In this document: piece by piece, positions 15,650 to 61,540 of the stretch
Position numbering within the stretch: position 1 is the stretch's first letter
Layout of the letters: each line of letters begins with the position of its first letter
DNA from: Bugula neritina
Lineage: Eukaryota > Bryozoa > Gymnolaemata > Cheilostomatida > Bugulidae
Assembly: GCA_964035545.1 (NCBI GenBank)
Contig: OZ037769.1
Location: 6,196,429 to 6,260,428, forward strand
DNA: 64,000 bases
Direction of reading: 5' to 3'
The notes under the pieces: generated by a model
The model's database searches: none
The model's input: only the letters and a program-made list of their open reading frames with translations
What the model was told of the DNA's origin: nothing
Made by a program: the position numbers and the translations under genes

Positions 15650-16355
15650 AGTGTTCCAGAAGGACATCAACGCTGTCTATGAGTGGTATATATAAAGCAG
15701 AAAAAGCCCTTCAATGAAAAGAAATGCCAGGCAATTAACTTTGGTAAAGCAACCCCTATACCACATTCCAAACTCAGTACCACATGCCTTTTGTGGGCAG
15801 AAACACCAAATACCTTGTGGTAACAATCCAGTCAGACCTAAGATTTTACCAGCACATAGATAAGAAGTGTATCAAATCCCTGAAAGTCCTTAGAGAAATC
15901 AAGCACTTGATGTATGATGGCCCAAAGGAGGCTAAGCTACTGGCTTACACAAGTTTATGCAGATCTACACTTGATTACGCAGATATGGTTTGGGATCCTG
16001 CGACTAGAAGCAAGGGGCGTGATATAAAGCTGGTCCAAAACAGCGCCATACAGTTCAGATGCAATGTAACTAAGGCTAGGAATGAGATAGGACTCTGGTC
16101 GCTGGAAGACAAAGGAAAAAATCATCGACTGTGTTTACTGGCTCAAATTCTTTAGAGTGAGGAGCAGCACCGAACTCTATTCAGAGCCTATGATGAGATT
16201 ATTCAGCTTGTAACTGTAGCTACTTGGACAGCTTCCAGAAGAGAGCTTATCTCGATGTCAGCTAAAAAAGCATGTTTCACACAGACAATTCGTGAGATGC
16301 ACGGAACATATAACAAACAATTACACAGCAAATACTGTAGCAAGTGTTAATCCTG
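15650..16355 (+). mobile_element. LINE reverse-transcriptase C-terminal fragment
   Basis: Broken plus-strand frames encode the end of a non-LTR polymerase: FQKDINAVYEWY (15655-15690), then after a stop an open stretch 15784-16155 with KYLVVTIQSDLRF, KLLAYTSLCRSTLDYADMVW and NEIGLWSLEDK, then after another stop SEEQHRTLFRAYDEI (16156-16200). Stops and frameshifts make it a pseudogene. The ending EEQHRTL...AYDEI matches EEQHPTL...AYEDFL in the fragment at 44430-45640, so both belong to one family. Confidence 0.85.
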
Positions 16356-22804: not shown

Positions 22805-25800
22805 ATGGCAGCGGCATTAACATTGGCAGCGAGGTCTTTGCTGCACAAGAAGGTGCACCAGGTGTGTTCAGTAGTCAGCTCTAAATACAGCAGCGCTATT
22901 GCTGATAATCACAACCCGGCAGCACTGAGAGAGCGATGGGCTAAGCCTCAGTTTGATTTAAAAAAGATGACCGAGGTGCTTGATCACGACAATCTGAGTA
23001 TGAGGCAGGAAATGAGAGAGTTCCTTAGAGATCCGTTATTCACGCCTCGGTTAGTCTAAATATGCTTTTTTCAGTAGGCCTTGTGGTTTTCTGTGAAGAT
23101 CTAGTTTTTCTGGCATGCTACTTTTCATATTTTTTGGTCATAATACTATTAGATCAGAAAAATAATTGAATTAGAAAAGAGAGATGATTCAAGTGCTGTA
23201 AACACTTGTAAATTATTTAATATTTTTTTAAAAAGCTTTCATTTTTTACTGCAATTACTCTGACTCAACTTATAAAAATGCTGACACTCTGATGATGCTG
23301 ACGTTGTAAGTTTATCCATCTCTTGCCGGTCCTTATAAGTTATAACAAACTTCTCTATTTTCCATACTCAGGTACAACATTTCTCTGTCAGATGAACGAG
23401 ATGTTGCATTGGAGCGGCTAAAGAAGATTTGTGATGCTGGTTTCATTTCTGTTCTTAACTTTGAAGATAATCCGGGAAAGATCTTCGCTGCTCACGAGCT
23501 AGCTGCCATAGTTGACTCCGCTATGGCCACCAAGATGACCGTCCAGTTTAACTTGTTTGGTAAATTTTCTAGCGTCTAGTAATTTGCTTTAATTGAGTAA
23601 TTTGTTGATCTGGTACGCTGGAGTATATTTCTTACTAAATATTTCTGTTCCTCCAATACAGTGTATAGATGAGTATTAGTGTATATTTGCTAGTTGAGAA
23701 TGCTAGAAGATGTACAGATGTTAAGGATACTCATAGATATATGAGTATATTCCTCGTGTAGTACAGTCATCCATGTTGTATGAATTGTACTACAGGTTGC
23801 TACATGGTGTATACTTTACTTGTGTGGTACTGTGTTGCTTCTTGTGTATACTGAACTTAGGTGGCACTGTGTTACATGTTGGTACATGGTGTATACTTCA
23901 CTTAGGTGGTACTGTGTTACATGTTGCCTATCGTGTATACTTTACTTAGATGGTGCTGTGTTACATATTACCTATGACGTATACTTAGGTGGTACTGTGT
24001 TACACGTTGCCTATGGTGTATACTTAGGTGGTATTGTGTTATATGTTGCCTATGGTGTATACTTCACTTAGGTGGCACTGTGTTGAAGCTTGGCACACAG
24101 AGACACCACTCAAAGCTACTCAAAGGAATTGACACACTCGAAGATGTCGGATGCTTCGGTCTGACAGAGCTAGGATACGGTATGTTGTAATTCCTTGTAA
24201 CTAGCAATCCTAGCTTATATAGGTTTTAGTCTAGAAAATTCTGATAAAAGTAGTCAGACTTTTAAAAACAAATTGCTACCAAGTTTTCAAATTGTATAAA
24301 TTTTTTTAATTCGAGTGCTACTGTAATAATATTCAGTTTAGTTTTGAACTGCAGTTAAAGTGTTTCAGCTACACCTCACATATAATCCCATATTGCATTT
24401 CTATACTATTTGAACTGTGTGGCTGTAGGTATATTATTAGTGTGTTTCTCACAGCAAATATTGATTCTTCTATATACATCAGCTTGTTTTTTTCTCTTGC
24501 TGACTCATATTCTTTCTCTGTGCAGGTAACAACGCAGTAGAGATGGAGACAACAGCCATATTTGATAAAGACTCAGGAGAGTGGATAGTCAACAGTCCCT
24601 CCATCCTCTCTCAGAAGTACTGGATCACCAACGGGGCAGTCCACGCCAAGCATTGCGTTGTGTTTGCTAGACTCATTGTTGAGGGGAAGGATCACGGAAT
24701 ACATGGCGTCCTTGTCCAGATTCGAGACAATCAGCTCAACACAATGCCTGGTATGCTTTTCATAGTCATATGATACACACTACACTATAGCTACAGATAT
24801 AAGTACTGTATATTGTTTGTTTTTAGAATAAATTGAGAAAAATTATGTAAAAAGATAAGTGAAATGCCACCTACTATTTGTGGTTGCTATCATAATTGTG
24901 GTTGCTGTAATCTATGTTTACTATAGACGTGTCCATTGCATATAGTATGGAGTTGTCCCACTTATATACTGTTTCTTCTTATTGTGTGTTCACTTATACC
25001 TTTGCATTATATTATGTGTTTTATTAAGTAAGAGCTCAATGTTTTTGCAACTACTGCTATCTAATCAGGTGCAACTATTGCTCTATCCAATCAGGTGTAA
25101 CTATTGCTCTATCCAATCAGGTGTAACTATTGCTCTATCCAATCAGGTGTAACTATTGCTATCCAATCAGGTGTAACTATTGCTCTATCCAATCACGTGT
25201 AACTACTGCTATCCAATCACGTGTAACTATTGCTATCCAATCAGGTGTCAGGGTTGAAGACATGGGATACAAGATGCAGCTAAATGGAGTTGACAATGCT
25301 AAACTGGTGTTTGACAATGTGAGAGTGCCACGGGAAAACCTTCTCAACAAGTTCTCCGATGTCGATGAAAATGGAAACTTTTCATCACCAATAAAGGGTG
25401 GCAGAGCAAGGTGTGTATCAGTAGCTGCTACGTAATAATTATACTAATAGTTAGTGCAAGATATGTTCATAGAATATAACCCTAGGAGTACTACAACATT
25501 TTCTAGTGGACATAATATTAGCTCTATGGTTAAAAATCTCTGGGGGTAGTTGGGAGCAGCTACATACTTGCATGCTTTCTGTATTAAGATTTTTCATAGA
25601 GTATGCAACTCCAAACTTTAAGAAATATATTACTAATATGTGAGTAACAGACACTAATATCAAGTGCTACTTGAGAATTGATACTGTAGTTTGCAGGTCA
25701 TCTTGTATCTGTAGGTATACAAGTTGCAGGGTGTTTCTGTGCACCTGAAGGCATCCACTTGCTGTAGTTTTAAAAACTGTACAATTTACTACATTCTAAC

Positions 25801-28800
25801 TATAAGTAATAAAATGACTTTTGTGATTGTTTATGTAAAAGTTCTTATAGCGACTGTCAACTAAACTTGTTATAGCAACTGGCAACTGTAGTTCTTATAT
25901 CAAACTGGTATTACATGGCTAACAGCTCAGTCACTATAATTGCAGGTTTCTGACAGTAGCCGACCAGTTGTTGTCAGGTAGAATATGCATAGCCTCCATG
26001 TCACAAGGTGTAGCTAAGGCATCACTCGCTATTGCCATGAGATACGCTGCCACCCGTCTCACTGTGGGCCCTACTGGCAAGTCAGACTACTGTGAGTATA
26101 CTCTCAGCTCTTGCATTGCTCTTCTAGTTTGAAGTTGTCTGTAGCTGTAACTGTATTCCTGTTATGTTTTCCCTATATTTTCCTGCTCATTGAGTAAACC
26201 AATATGGCTGTGTGCATCTTAAGATATAGAGTAGTAAATAGTTTGAATGAAGGATTTAGTTCAAAATCAATACCACTAAATTAGATAGATTTATTGATAA
26301 AAGTAAATAATATTATGTAACCATTTACAATAATCTTCTAGGTTTTTAATGTGATTATTAATTTCTTTGTTTTCAACTTTATAATCTGCTAGTTGTTACC
26401 TAATGCTGTTAGAAAGGAGCATCATATCCCTGGTTTGTTTCAGCAATCCTGAACTATCAGCTGCAACAGAGGGCTCTGCTCCCACTTCTCGCAAGGACGT
26501 ATGCACTCAATTTTGGTCTAGACTATGTCAAGGTAACTCGAATCAATTAACAATTGGTACACTCTGAAGCATTGTTGGGTGGTGTCTAAAGTTTTAGCAG
26601 TTACAATGGCAGTTTGTTTTGGGATAATTTTAGATCATGATAATTAGACCTGTATTGATGATGACAAAAAGTATGTGATATTTGCGGAACTCAACTATTT
26701 TTTTCAGAAAAAATGGTTATGTGTAAGCAACATTTTATACACATGATGCGTGAAATATGGCAGGACAATAAATACGGCGAGCTCAGCCTATAATAACAAT
26801 TTCCAACTCATGTTATTATTATGCTGTGTGAAATACACGGTAGTTGTCTTCCCACAGGATCGATATTCTAATCAGAAAGAAGATGGCAGTGAACACCAGG
26901 AAATAGTGACCATGTGCTGTGTTATTAAACCTCTTTGTGCCTGGAATGTAGAAAATGTGAGCTCAGTTTCCCGGGAACGGTGTGGAGGTCAAGGATATCT
27001 AGCTGCTAACAGATTTGGTTAGTATCATTTCATAGCCTTTGATCCTATTGTGTTATTTCATAGCCCTAAGTTCTGTTGTATCATTTCATAGCCTTTGGTC
27101 TTGTTGTGTTATTTCATAGCCCTAAGTTCTGTTGTATCATTTCATAGCCTTTGGTCTTGTTGTATTATTTCATAGCCTCGTGTTCTATCGTATTATTTCA
27201 TAGCTTTAAATTATATCAATTAAACATACATGTACAATACTTATATCAATGGAAAATTATTTTTTGCTGTTTATAAAATGTGGTATATACAATGTCTAGA
27301 ATTGACTTCAGAAATATAAAGTGTTGGCCAATGTTTTAATGGCTCTTTCATCTGCCTACTTATAAAAATAACCACTATTTTCTACTGTTCGTCAAAATAA
27401 ACCGAATTTGATTTATCAAATTAATAAGCTGAAAGTCAAACAGGTTGATTAGAGTCATGAATATATTTTGTTCTTTTCAAGATTTATTGTTTGACTTTGC
27501 AGACTTTGCAGCTTTATGAAGCTGTTGACAAACATAAATGATCTGCTCAACATTCAGCTTTTATTTTAGTTTTATGCTGGAAATTTGGCTTTCTTTGACC
27601 CAAGTGGACATAGTAGTGGAAAGCTGCATGTTTTTCTGTAACATACCCATCTTGTGTTTCAAAACATGTTTTATAAAATTACATTATTTAAATGCTTACT
27701 ATATACATAATAGCCATCATATAGTAATATACAAATCTAGGCATAAAAACTTCATGCTGGTTGCAGGTATATTTATTGGTTTATCTCATGCTGGTTGCAG
27801 GTATATTTATTGGTTTATCTCACGCTGCCATGACTGCCGAGGGAGACAACTCTGTTCTGATGCAGAAAGTGGCCAAGGAGAGACTTGCATCATTCAAACC
27901 CAGCGCTATCAAGGAAGTTCAGGCAGACGTTGATAGTACAGAATATTTACACTCGGTTCTTGCAAACAGGTAAAGTATAGCTAAGTTCTAACTAACAGTA
28001 GAGTACCACTCATTTATAAGTAACAGTAGAGTATTACTCATTTATAACTAACAGTAGATTACCACTCATTTATAAGTGACAGTAGAGTATTACTCATTTA
28101 TAAGTGACAGTAGAGTATCACTCATTTATAACTAACAGTAGAGTACTACTCAGTTTCAACAAACCATAGAGAACCGCTCAGTTATACTCACATAAGTTTA
28201 TAGTCGCTATCCCTGTGAGAACTTTTATATAATTTAAATGTACTTGTTTTTGATAACTAAAATATTTAAAAAAGTTTGTAATACAGTTTCTGCTACAATA
28301 ATACCTGTTGGTATCTGTTGCACTTTTAAATAATGTGTATGTTTTTGCATTTTGCTATTGTAAAAAAATGTCTCTTTAAAAACTGGTGATAAATGAGTAA
28401 TCAAATTGATATTGAAAGTTACTAATTGTAATAATGTTAATAAGTAGTGAATATTGGTGAATAGTAGTGCAATAGTTGTCAACTTTTTAAATCTTTAAAG
28501 CAGTTTGTCTTCTTACTAAACATATGACGATGTAGCTATCTCCTTTCACAGAGAGAACATCACGTTTATGACTCTGGGTAAGAAACTGATGAAGGCTGGC
28601 AAGGAGAACCTGTTTGAGACGTGGATGTTACAAGAGAGTGACCTGGTGCAAGCCGCCGCCCACTCTTTCGGTAAATATGATTGGCTGATAGGTTTGCCAT
28701 GCGCTTCTCTGTGCATCATTCAAACTAGCAATTGCTAGTTTACTCTCCTGCTTAATGTATCAATTCTTGTTGGCGATGAAGCACTTTTCTAGCTAATATC

Positions 28801-34925: not shown

Positions 34926-37900
34926 CTATTCCGATTTCTGCTTGCTGCCGATTGAAATGCTGTCACCTTCGCCATCAAAACTCTGTCCAAACTCGTTAAC
35001 CCTGGTTTTATCCACTGGATATAACCTACACAAACATCAATCAACTTGCAACCACTAATCAAACATGCTGTTTATAGGTTATGTAACAGATGAAACTCAA
35101 GTTATAAACATTTAAAATTTTCAATTAACTTTAACTTAATGTCCAGTCAACATGTATATATAATATATTAACTAGCTAATAACACAGGTCAACCAGATCA
35201 ACAGAACAATTCTTAAGAGTTATTGGCATAAGCGACTCTAATTTATGTAGAAACCTGGAAGTACTGTACAGGAAATAGTTCCACAGTTACACATAGATAG
35301 TCTATGAAGAGGCTGTTTATGTGTACAGACTGTGTAGAAGCTTTCGGACAGCAAGAAGCAGAGAAAGTGAATACACTCACCACCTCTGGTAGAGATAGAC
35401 AAGGAACAGAGAAAGTGAATACACTCACCATCTCTGGTAGAGGTACACAAGGAACAGAGAAAGTGAATACACTCACCACCTCTGGTAGAGGTAGACAAGG
35501 AACAGAGAAAGTGAATACACTCACCATCTCTGGTAGAGGTAGACAAGGAACAGAGAAAGTGAATACACTCACCATCTCTGGTAGAGATAGACAAGGAACA
35601 GATAGAGTGAGTACACTCACCATCTCTGGTAGAGATAGACAAGGAACAGAGAAAGTGAATACACTCACCATCTCTGGTAGAGATAGACAAGGAACAGAGA
35701 AAGTGAATACACTCACCACCTCTGGTAAAGATAGACAAGGAACAGATAAAGTGAATACACTCACCATCTCTGGTAGAGGTAGACAAGGAACAGAGAAAGT
35801 GAGTACACTCACCATCTCTGGTAGAGATAGACAAGGAACAGAGAAAGTGAATACACTCACCATCTCTGGTAGAGATAGACAAGGAACAGAGAAAGTGAAT
35901 ACACTCACCACCTCTGGTAAAGATAGACAAGGAACAGATAAAGTGAATACACTCACCATCTCTGGTAGAGGTAGACAAGGAACAGATAAAGTGAATACAC
36001 TCACCACCTCTGGTAAAGATAGACAAGGAACAGATAAAGTGAATACACTCACCATCTCTGGTAGAGATAGACAAGGAACAGAGAAAGTGAATACACTCAC
36101 CATCTCTGGTAGAGATAGACAAGAAACAGAGAAAGTGAATACATTCACCATCTCTGGTAGAGGTAGACAAGAAACAGAGAAAGTGAATACATTCACCATC
36201 TCTAGTAGAGGTAGACAAGGAACAGAGAAAGTGAATACACTCACCATTTCTGGTAGAGGTAGACAAGGAACAGAGAAAGTGAATACACTCACCACCTCTG
36301 GTAGAGATAAACAAGGAACAGATAGAGTGAATACACTCACCATCTCTGGTAGAGGTAGACAAGGAACAGAGAAAGTGAATACACTCACCATCTCTGGTAG
36401 AGGTAGACAAGAAACAGAGAAAGTGAATACATTCACCATCTCTAGTAGAGGTAGACAAGAAACAGAGAAAGTGAATACATTCACCATCTCTAGTAGAGGT
36501 AGACAAGGAACAGAGAAAGTGAATACACTCACCACCTCTGGTAGAGGTACACAAGGAACAGAGAAAGTGAATACACTCACCATCTCTGGTAGAGGTAGAC
36601 AAGGAACAGAGAAAGTGAATACACTCACCATCTCTGGTAGAGATAGACAAGAAGCAGAGAGAGTGAATACACTCACCATCTCTGGTACAGGTAGACAAGG
36701 AACAGAGAAAGTGAATACACTTACCACCTCTGGTAGAGGTAGACAAGAAACAGAGAAAGTGAGTACACTCACCACCTCTGGTAGAGGTAGACAAGGAACA
36801 GATAAAGTGAATACACTCACCATCTCTGGTAGAGGTAGACAAGGAACACCAAGTCATCTCGGAAACAAGCAACTCTGTGAGCCGTTGGCATCGTTATTAT
36901 GAAGGCAAACACATCATCTATAAACGTGTTGAATGCCTGCAGTGGTAATAATATATATATATATAATATAGATATCTACAATTGCACATCTTGATGCATT
37001 ATAGAATCTATATCTAGGATTTTTTCTGCTATAAGTAAAAAAGCCAACAATCAGTATGAAATAAATAATGACGGACAGTTTACCAGCCAGTGATAAAAAA
37101 ACATATATTTCATGTAAAATGTGTGTAACAGAATATATCAACTTATTTTTCAAAATCCATATTTTGCCTCGTATATTGCTATCTCATATCCAAACAACGT
37201 AGCATGTACACAAATAATTTGCATTATACACAAATATAAGTAACATTATCTTCTCACGCTGTAACATGAATATCTCACTTAATACATGAATATCTCACCT
37301 CATGCATGAATATGTCTCACCTTATACATGAATATATCTCACCTAATAAACCAACATCTCACCTTATACATGAATATCTCACCTAATACATGAATATCTC
37401 ACCTAATACATAAATATCTCACCTTATACACGGATATCTCACCTTATAGACAAATATCTCACCTTATACAGGAATATCTCACCTTATACATGAATATCTC
37501 ACCTTATACATGAATATCTCACCTTATGCATAAATATCTCACCTTATACACGAATATCTCACCTTATACACGAATATCTCACCTTATACACGAATATCTT
37601 ACTTTATACACGGATATCTCACCTTATACACGGATATCTCACCTTATACATGAATATCTCACCTTATACACAAATACCTCATCTTATACATAAATATCTC
37701 ACCTTGTACATGAATATCTCACCTTGTACATGAAAGCTCTCCACGGAAGGTGAGCGACAGACTTCAGCTTATAGTTGACAAACAGTTGAGGCAGCATGAA
37801 GAGGAACCCGAAGGCATAGACTCCATTGACTAGACTCTGGAGGCACCACGAATACCAGCTGCAGACGATAAACTAATAATAATAGTCTGACAGGAAAACT

Positions 37901-40900: not shown

Positions 40901-42356
40901 CGCTAAGATCATGTGTAGATAATAGTCACTCGTTGATACCGAGGTGCGAGATATGTTGAGAGATCTAACAAATAGTAGCCATTAATTATAATACGCATGA
41001 AGTAGTTGATGTATTTAAACATGTGTCATATGTAAAGCAGTACAACTATGTGTATTTACTGAATGTTGTGTAGATTAGTTGAAAACAATACTGAGAATGT
41101 ATCCATCATAACAGATTAAAAACCTGCAAGACTAAAGTAAATAATTTGACCACTCACTTACACAATACACCTACACAGTGCATTTACACAGTACACCTAC
41201 ACAATACACTTACACAATACACTTATACAACACATGTACACAATACATTTATTTACACAATACACCTACACAATACACTTACACAATACACCTACACAAT
41301 AGACTTACACAATAGACTTACACAATACACCTACACAATACACCTACACAGTACACTTACACAGTACACTTACACAATACACCCACACATTACACCTACA
41401 CAATACACCCACACACTACACCTACACAATACATCTACACAGTACACTTACACAGTACACTTACACAGTACACTTACACAATGCACTTACACTTCCTGAG
41501 TTGAAAATATATCAAAGTTTTCTTTCTCATGTAGAAGTTTTCCAAGAGATGAACTTTTAGTTGACCCATAAAATGATACCTAAAATGTCCCAAATATAAA
41601 TAGAATTAACATTTGGGATTTTAGGAAAATACTTTTAACTAAAATATACTTTAACAGAAGCAAGTGCAAATACGATATATATGCTAAAATATAGTCCATA
41701 TGCTTCCCTTTAATTTTCACTTCAAGACAATTGAGTAGCCTATAAACTATATATAATTATATATAGTTATATAATATAATATATAATATTGTAATACATA
41801 ATATATAAAATATAATTATATATAATATATAATTATATAAACTATATAATATAATATAATATATAATATTATAATACATAATATATACTTATATATAATC
41901 CTTTTGAAAGCATATAACAAAAACATATAGTATACACATGTATGACAACAGTATGTAGCATTTCTGCAAACTACTCAATTTATGACTAACAAATGAACGA
42001 CTCACTTTGCCTTCTTTCAACTTTTAAGTAGCAACACGCTTAATTGATGTCACTTTAAATCAGGATTACTAAAAATACTACTAATAAGATATTCTCTTCT
42101 ATTAAACAAAAAAGCTGCATTATCAACTTTTATTACAATAACATTTAAAAAGATAATAAATTACCGAGAGTTTTTCATGATTATATTTCCCACTTCTTTT
42201 CTGTATAAATAACCATGAGGAAATGCATATGGCTGATTGATCAGTAGCCTCAGTGCATTGAGGAACGTGAAACATTGTGTACATTGTCCATATTGTGTGC
42301 CCAATATATGCTACACACAGTCCTATTAGCACAGTGGTTAAAGAAAACCGTGGCAT
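34926..42356 (-). CDS. CLPTM1L: CLPTM1-like membrane protein (CLPTM1L/CRR9), 11 exons
   Basis: Multi-pass ER membrane protein; family members are reported as lipid scramblases of the ER. Exons (minus): 42356-42165, 41579-41491, 40964-40580, 40185-40068, 39768-39674, 39588-39504, 39222-39059, 38535-38402, 37858-37723, 36936-36821, 35025-34926; 1614 nt, 537 aa, against 538 in human, with phase kept throughout. Seen: N-terminal membrane helix in [20 protein letters not shown], a large luminal domain with NIS sites (exons 2-4), [53 protein letters not shown], the hallmark [32 protein letters not shown], and [13 protein letters not shown] near the end. The intron after exon 8 is GC-AG (AAAAG|gcaaga). 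Introns 2, 9 and 10 are filled with tandem copies of their own donor sites, the largest 1.5 kb. A true homologue of CLPTM1L rather than CLPTM1, judged by [13 protein letters not shown]. Confidence 0.95.
35342..36850. repeat. 48-bp minisatellite, about 31 copies, built from the CLPTM1L exon 10 donor junction
   Basis: On the minus strand each unit is 25 nt of exon 10 end (tccttgtctacctctacc + agagatg) followed by 23 nt of intron start (gtgagtgtattcactttctc + tgt). The true junction is the highest-coordinate unit (36821/36820). Because 48 is divisible by 3, three long repetitive open frames of over 500 codons run through it; they are artefacts. Units differ at few positions (for example aga/aaa, gat/ggt, cacc/catc), so the array is young or homogenised. 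Confidence 0.95.
36950..37250. other. Unique part of CLPTM1L intron 9
   Basis: A+T-rich with a short (TA)n run at 36949-36968. Nothing else seen. Confidence 0.4.
37256..37735. repeat. 20-bp minisatellite, about 23 copies, built from the CLPTM1L exon 9 donor junction
   Basis: Minus-strand unit ttcatgtacaag|gtgagata: the last 12 nt of exon 9 plus the first 8 nt of intron 9. The true junction is at 37723/37722. Most units keep a usable AAG|gtgaga donor, with drift such as tataag. Confidence 0.95.
41149..41493. repeat. 13-bp minisatellite, about 26 copies, at the CLPTM1L intron 2 donor
   Basis: Minus-strand unit tactgtgtaagtg; it starts at the true donor GGAAGT|gtaagtg (41491/41490) and repeats the core gtgtaagtg or gtgtaggtg down the intron, so most units carry a consensus-like gtaagt. 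Confidence 0.85.
41735..41905. repeat. (TA)-rich palindromic tract in CLPTM1L intron 1
   Basis: Over 150 bp of almost pure A and T (tataattatatatagttata and variants), self-complementary and likely to extrude as a cruciform or to break sequencing. Confidence 0.7.
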
Positions 42357-44429: not shown

Positions 44430-45640
44430 CTGTGTGTGATTTACAGTTATGGACTGCTCTGGAAAAGTCATTCAATCATTTTGGGAGAAATCTATAACGA
44501 TATCCATTCTTGTTCGCTCTCACTGATCTGGGAAGTCCTGAATCCTGAGATCGAGTCTGTACAGTGCTTGTGGTCTGCTGATCCAGAAAATCCTCATAGG
44601 CAGCATTCAGAGTTGGATGTTGTTCTTCCTTAGAAAATATTTTCAAGAGAAAGCTGATGCGTCGCTTTTTCTTCCTTAGATCAAGCGGCTCCAAACACAG
44701 CTTTTTCATTTCCTCACCGATATCAGTTCATCCTTTGTTGTTAAAGATAAAACGCACAGCATGTGTTTTTACATTCTCCATTATACTTATATGGTTTTTA
44801 CTGGATGGGTCCCAGGCTGCGCTGGCATATTCTAAGTGTGGGAGACAGAGAGCTTTGTAGGCAACAAGCTTTGCTTTCTTGGGGGCCCAGTAGAGTGCAC
44901 GTTTTATCATACCTAATTGCCGTTTTGCAACAAGAACCTTTTTTAGGATGTGTTGGTCAAATTTACAGTCTGATTGCAGTGTTACACCAAGGTATTTTGT
45001 TGAGTCAACATGATCCAGCACTGATCCAACAAGCTTGTTTTGAGGAGTATTGGTCTTAGGGTTAAAGCTGATTATCTTGCTCTTGTTGAATGACATTCCC
45101 CATTTTTCTGCACAAGTACTAAAGTCCAGGTTTCACTAAAAATTTTTACAGTTTTCCGATGAGGAAATTTCTTAGTAAACAAGTGCATCATCGACACTCA
45201 GGAAGATCATTTATAAAGACAAAGAAAAGTACCGGCCCTAACACTGATCCCTGTGGTACACCTGAGCAAACTGGCTATAGATCCGAGCTGCAGCCTTGTA
45301 ACACAACACCCTGCTTTCTGTCTGTAAGAAAGTTGTGAACTCAACGTAGGAGATAATTGTCAACATCGCAATTTTAGAAAGCTTTTATAACAGAAGGGCA
45401 TGTGGGACCCGATCAAATACCTTGATGAAGTCTAGCACAGCAGCATGAACAGTCTTTTGGTTGTCGATAGCATACAGAATGAGAATGTCATACATAGTTG
45501 CACAGATCGGCGTCTCACAAGAAACCATGCTGCCTGTTGCTAAGCTTTGTGTCAATCTTTTTGAGCAAATTTCTCAGGACAACCACGATGTGTTCCAAAA
45601 TCTTGCAATGGATGCTGGTCAAAGATATTGGACAGTATTT
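44430..45640 (-). mobile_element. Degraded LINE reverse-transcriptase fragment
   Basis: Minus-strand broken frames encode a non-LTR polymerase. 45096-44728 is open and contains KYLGVTLQSDCKFDQHI, KLVAYKALCLPHLEYASAAW and AVRFIFNN; further down, 44709-44476, comes FSKEEQHPTLNAAYEDFL. Upstream pieces (45640-45100) match the palm region only in fragments with stops. Same family as 2530-3430 and 15650-16355 by the shared C-terminal pattern. Confidence 0.85.

Positions 45641-47836: not shown

Positions 47837-61540
<13,704 letters not shown>

Follow-up and report, generated by a model that had tools for sequence, protein, structure and literature searches.

In the CLPTM1L gene of the bryozoan Bugula neritina, a unit made up of the final 28 nt of exon 10 and the opening 20 nt of intron 10 is present 31 times in tandem. 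The array likely arose by repeated duplication inward from the exon edge; splicing likely uses the outermost donor alone, with the other copies leaving with the intron. The probability of this reading is put at roughly 0.7. The array (array 1) lies in a window of 64,000 nucleotides (G000:C5:6196429-6260428), in which further arrays at exon edges have been identified (Table 1).

The CLPTM1L gene was modelled on the minus strand of the window, and its product matches the Pfam family CLPTM1 with an E-value of 1.2e-106. The gene name and exon number proposed in an earlier sequence-only reading hold, by gene model and Pfam. The closest protein match is a CLPTM1L of B. neritina itself (P0001), with 97% identity at 74% query coverage; that the identity is only 97% may reflect cryptic lineages. 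P0001 reads ..YLYQRWLYPVDK.. across the exon 10 junction, free of stops. It probably comes from a draft genome in which genes were predicted with the help of transcript hints, and is then itself a prediction. Intron 8 of the gene has a GC donor (AAAAG/GCAAGA, minus strand, 38402-38391 of the window). Elsewhere in the window, an uninterrupted, intronless open frame of 466 codons is found on the minus strand (12751-11351), which we take to resemble kynurenine aminotransferase, and pieces of reverse-transcriptase-like frames were recognised by eye at 15748-16155, 44728-45132, 48281-49093 and 55988-56644. Scans of the window for tRNA genes and Rfam families gave no matches.

Table 1. Modelled features and tandem arrays in the window (a slash marks the exon-intron border)
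Feature	Position	Strand	Description	Basis
CLPTM1L gene	42356-34926	minus	11 exons, 537 aa, internal stops absent	gene model
CLPTM1L exon 2	41491..41579	minus		gene model
CLPTM1L exon 9	37723..37858	minus		gene model
CLPTM1L exon 10	36821..36936	minus	116 nt; source of the repeat unit	gene model, Pfam, YLYQRW homologue count
CLPTM1L intron 10	35026..36820	minus	1795 nt; authentic donor GT at 36820-36819	
CLPTM1L exon 11	34926..35025	minus	final coding exon	gene model
Array 1	35352..36848	minus	48 bp x 31; every unit copies the exon 10/intron 10 junction	TRF
Array 2	37264..37734	minus	20 bp x 23.4; starts over the exon 9/intron 9 junction; 12 exon nt per unit; AAG/GTGAGA	
Array 3	41155..41492	minus	13 bp x 25.7; starts at the exon 2/intron 2 donor; 2 exon nt; GT/GTAAGTG	
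ACOX-like acceptor array	23843..24084	plus	CTTAG/GTGGCACTGTGTT; 13 nt past exon start	TRF, Pfam
ACOX-like acceptor array	25049..25248	plus	CCAATCAG/GTGT; 4 nt past exon start	TRF
ACOX-like 28-bp array	27022..27204	plus	begins 4 nt into intron	
ACOX-like two-copy acceptor duplication	27752..27827	plus	TTGCAG/GTATATTT; 34 bp; crosses 27 nt	
Kelch gene array	61092..61375	plus	ends 6 nt short of exon	

The anatomy of array 1 is regular. TRF reports 31.2 copies of 48 bp with 94% matches and a score of 2574, far beyond chance. Exon 10 terminates in ..CTCTACCAGAGATG/GTGAGTG, and from there the unit repeats to position 35352, placing donors at 36820-48k (k = 0 to 30), that is 31 including the authentic one. 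The sequence-only reading had described about 31 copies of this junction, and the 31 donors 48 bp apart bear this out. The unit length it gave was also right, and its split into 25 exon and 23 intron nucleotides is corrected to 28 and 20 by comparing the unit consensus with the exon; its interval 35342..36936 takes in all of exon 10. The donor motif GTRAGT is kept in 27 of the 31 units, and the other four (k = 7, 8, 13 and 14) read GTGAAT. In the exon frame, a stop follows directly after the junction codon TGG in every unit (TGA in 30, TAA in one), as had been noted for the first junction, and 27 of the 31 units encode YLYQRW followed by this stop. Since YLYQRW is conserved in 116 of 120 homologues, exon 10 is the source, and thus the ancestral copy, of the unit. 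This conserved source, together with the unit anatomy, supports the earlier idea that the repeat was born across the border and grew into the intron. Open frames of 551, 536 and 533 codons also cross array 1 (window 35238-36902); they exist because the 48-bp unit has no stops in its other frames, and they are a trap for gene prediction.

The units share a mean pairwise identity of 93.5%. Neighbouring units are never identical, and some distant ones are (unit 5 equals 27; units 20, 24 and 26 are equal), a pattern that points to exchange between units of the array. What would speak for an assembly artefact is the general liability of long tandem arrays to mis-assembly. Against it stand the lack of identical neighbours, the many unlike arrays found genome-wide, and the PacBio HiFi assembly itself (tzBugNeri2.1), which has about 132-fold coverage, with 27.37 Gb in 2.82 million HiFi reads of about 10 kb per read (PMC11480708). 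An artefact is therefore considered exceedingly unlikely.

Array 1 may have been born when short direct repeats flanking the junction gave rise to a tandem duplication. Such repeats are present for array 1 (TGTTCCTTG in the exon, TGCTTCTTG in the distal flank), for array 2 (TTCATG on its flanks) and in the ACOX-like gene (TCATGCTGG in the intron, TCACGCTGC in the exon), and short direct repeats on both sides of a border are as slippage or end-joining duplication would give. During growth, the exon, being under selection, may have stayed the template copy for the array. Across the 30 inner copies of array 1, the 28 exon-like nt carry 10 distinct variants, and in a post hoc test seven of these are synonymous in the exon frame (2.7 expected, P 0.005), compared with three and two in the other frames. 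It is as if most variants arose in coding sequence, which fits the exon as template. In array 2 this bias is absent, with 3 of 12 variant types being synonymous where 1.75 are expected.

Full-length protein would have to come from splicing at the outermost donor of array 1 only, judging from the reading frame, and selection for the use of this donor, which had been proposed before, is plausible. A deeper donor would lead to an immediate stop. This stop lies 44 nt before the last junction when donor 2 is used, and 92 nt or more before it from donor 3 on. mRNA decay usually follows a 50-55 nt rule, and by these distances decay is predicted from the third donor on. The inner donors score equal to the authentic one on the matrix used. 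The outermost donor may instead be picked by exon definition, in which the splice sites nearest to each other across the exon pair. Transfected minigenes under exon definition chose the upstream of two donors exclusively, whereas intron definition favoured the downstream one (PMC9225289). With an exon of 116 nt and an intron of 1795 nt, exon definition predicts that the outermost donor is used; under intron definition inner donors would be preferred, which would count against this view. RNA accessibility was also considered as the chooser and rejected, as the outermost donor ranks 12th of 31 in array 1 and 21st of 22 in array 2.

A function for the array itself has also been considered. Spare donors might recruit U1 snRNP, inner donors combined with mRNA decay might tune the amount of full protein, or the array might be removed stepwise by splicing of 43-nt mini-introns that use 3' splice-like sites in the unit. 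The intactness of most donors agrees with this, as does the 3' splice-like site CTTGTCTACCTCTACCAG/A that the units of array 1 hold, which scores 6.6-9.2 compared with 4.0-10.0 for the ten authentic acceptors of the gene. The units read CAG/AGATG/GTGAGTG, so that 5 nt separate the acceptor-like site from the donor; recursive splice sites, which are used stepwise, have the donor immediately behind the acceptor (AG/GT). A functional array is nevertheless judged quite improbable, as the conserved part of the unit is the peptide-coding part, the units of other arrays are unlike in length and sequence, and the donor positions of array 1 are not spared variants (14 of 57, 10.7 expected). The last result gives no sign of selection keeping the inner donors. 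On the favoured reading, the arrays would be ballast that is tolerated, not a device.

Arrays of this kind are not limited to intron 10. Three of the ten CLPTM1L introns (2, 9 and 10) open with tandem copies of the donor that starts them. Further arrays are found in a modelled gene of 12 exons resembling acyl-CoA oxidase (ACOX-like; Pfam E-values down to 5.6e-31 on 503 aa) and in a partly modelled kelch gene (Pfam 6.3e-25), in which three stops in the joined model cast doubt on the donor of exon 6. A GBA2-like gene, modelled about 114 kb away on the same contig (Pfam 3.6e-13 for the joined exons), carries a 44-bp two-copy donor duplication with 38 exon nt (G000:C5:6114892-6114990), which looks like a newborn array. 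The sequence-only reading had covered array 1, and arrays 2 and 3, the ACOX acceptor arrays, the 3' splice-like site of the unit and the genome-wide scale were not part of it. Elsewhere on the contig, a short putative exon (SSGLDDDWDKDLFGEDLKAVQELAEQISAGK) has a different array on each side (13 bp x 53 and 38 bp x 8; G000:C5:6130391-6131490). In the window, two 16-bp arrays (50285-50370 and 51900-51953) have near-identical units that run in opposite directions, with about 1.6 kb between the arrays.

Another explanation is chance: in a minisatellite-rich genome, arrays would lie anywhere in introns and some would happen to overlap a border. Over the 260 kb that the analysis covered, TRF repeats indeed account for about 8%. 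The positions of array ends were compared with exon edges using TRF clusters (score at least 50, period at least 8) in all 38 introns of the four modelled genes (CLPTM1L, ACOX, kelch and GBA2). An end no more than 10 nt from an exon edge, or across it, was found for 13 of 19 intronic arrays, in a choice of genes that was not blind, as ACOX and GBA2 were noticed through their arrays. The expectation is 1.5 under uniform placement in introns (P 1.8e-11) and 4.2 under a seed null in which any intron-touching unit may seed an array (P 6e-6). The excess persists for the genes of the window only (8 of 12; 0.83 or 2.3 expected; P 1.4e-7 or 3.7e-4), without CLPTM1L (10 of 15; 3.4 expected; P 1.4e-4) and in ACOX and kelch together (5 of 8; 0.51 or 1.57 expected; P 4e-5 or 0.008). 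A junction is crossed by nine of the 19 arrays, where 3.05 would be expected (P 8e-4); donors account for five of the crossings and acceptors for four. In a plain 24-mer border test a tandem copy was present at 5 of 39 borders and at 5.7% of random positions, a difference that is not significant (P 0.07) and agrees with chance; in the same test, tandem copies occurred at about 32% of intron-internal positions. Coding-like flanks beside arrays (18 of 142 at an offset of 15 nt versus 59 of 759 at 300-1500 nt) give weak support to placement at exon edges. Ab initio exon prediction was tried and set aside as too weak (0.17 bits per codon; a threshold of 17 gave 113 + 178 exons versus 75 + 77 in reversed sequence).

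The genome-wide counts also bear on chance. Three AGGTRAGT motifs with gaps of 4-34 nt occur 3494 times (2079 + 1415), versus 90 times (51 + 39) for the reversed motif, while the single motif occurs 21087 times and its reverse 11998 times. A triple is thus opened at 16.6% of AGGTRAGT sites versus 0.75% of reversed sites, a 22-fold difference. None of the CLPTM1L array donors forms such a triple, so the pattern overlooks arrays of that type. Among the first 100 of the 3494 matches listed, 14 distinct triple-donor arrays were found on contig C1, which as a rough figure gives about 490 arrays in the genome, with the listed matches uneven by strand and a few long arrays perhaps accounting for many matches. 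In nine of the 14 (L029, L031, L032, L034, L036, L037, L038, L040 and L041), the upstream flank holds an open frame up to the outermost donor and is read as an exon. The other five have no clear upstream exon, which speaks against the favoured reading: the exon is doubtful for L033, and the flank shows none for L030, L035, L039 and L042. Pfam supports three of the nine exons at E < 1e-3 (caspase 5.8e-9, OATP 6.2e-7, Ig 9.5e-4); L032 has a weak ankyrin match (0.0043), L038 an uninformative one only (0.036), and four have no match. L034 is presumably PUF60-like and L038 transporter-like. The repeat unit includes 10-25 exon nt in five of the nine exon-adjoining arrays. With the edge test and this excess of donor triples against it, chance is regarded as rather unlikely.

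Other motifs gave mixed results. In the 260 kb examined, loose GGTRAG triples numbered 39, while the reversed motif and two scrambled ones gave none. GTRAGT triples showed no excess (26 versus 26 for the reversed form, a form that GTGAGTG itself matches), and acceptor motifs showed none either (TTNCAG 6 of 789 versus 3 of 401). Genome-wide, 93344 TTTCAG acceptor triples were counted versus 267, and this count is uninformative since all but the first seven of those listed lie in one satellite. This large satellite, rich in TTTCAGTATG, is located at G000:C1 ~14.695-14.705 Mb; taken together, sites of this sort account for TTTCAG triples in the tens of thousands.

The kind of structure is already known. 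Minisatellite-like tandem duplications of exon-intron boundaries, termed mirages, have been described in amphioxus in Adh3, the globins BflGb6 and BflGb9 and TnC, with a similar case in PGBD5 (PMC3087553, PMC3902484), and regular splicing was found there by RT-PCR (PMC3087553). This precedent makes the case less singular than the sequence-only reading had implied, although the array it described stands. Mirages resemble the Bugula arrays in that the unit spans the boundary and copies the splice signal, both 5' and 3' boundaries are affected, and several genes of one genome are involved. They differ in copy number (6 and 3 in BflGb6, up to 31 here), in host, and in that Bugula has three arrays in one gene and a measured genome-wide excess; mirage splicing was shown by RT-PCR, and length polymorphism or somatic instability also counts among mirage traits, whereas the Bugula arrays are known here from the sequence of one haplotype. 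Within the open-licence papers searched, the phylum, the copy number of up to 31, the three arrays per gene and the genome-scale excess are new. In this literature, no paper was found on tandem repeats at splice sites of bryozoan introns, nor a genome-wide case of splice-junction arrays.

An introner or transposon-borne array was also considered and rejected, as the same unit would be expected at many sites, while units of 13, 20 and 48 bp occur in one gene and the 14 arrays on C1 differ. Intron gain by tandem duplication has reportedly occurred in potato RdRp. The Rogers model explains such gain by duplication of AG/GT sites (cited in PMC3087553) and, as outlined there, resembles array 1 in that duplication around a junction yields spare splice sites, but the CLPTM1L gene model contains no new intron from duplication. 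Human genes in segmental duplications likewise have internal tandem repeats at exon-intron boundaries, minisatellites in which splice signals are included (PMC2812944); these differ from one recent paralogue to another and can give rise to new introns, whereas those of Bugula sit in single conserved genes.

More broadly, intronic minisatellites in B. neritina may be born mainly at exon edges, and most of all at 5' splice sites, a tentative proposal to which we give slightly less than even odds. About one in six AGGTRAGT sites would open a triple, hundreds of genes would be affected, the exon would act as a master copy that reseeds the array, and exon definition would shield the genome from thousands of spare sites. 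How one of several equal 5' splice sites is chosen has long been asked, usually with two-site minigenes, and here a conserved gene has natural arrays in which between 20 and 31 near-identical donors follow one another. As every inner donor of array 1 stops translation at once, RNA reads could separate exon-centred from intron-centred choice. The anchoring of arrays at exon edges raises the question of why minisatellites begin at splice junctions, and such arrays may provide raw material for intron growth.
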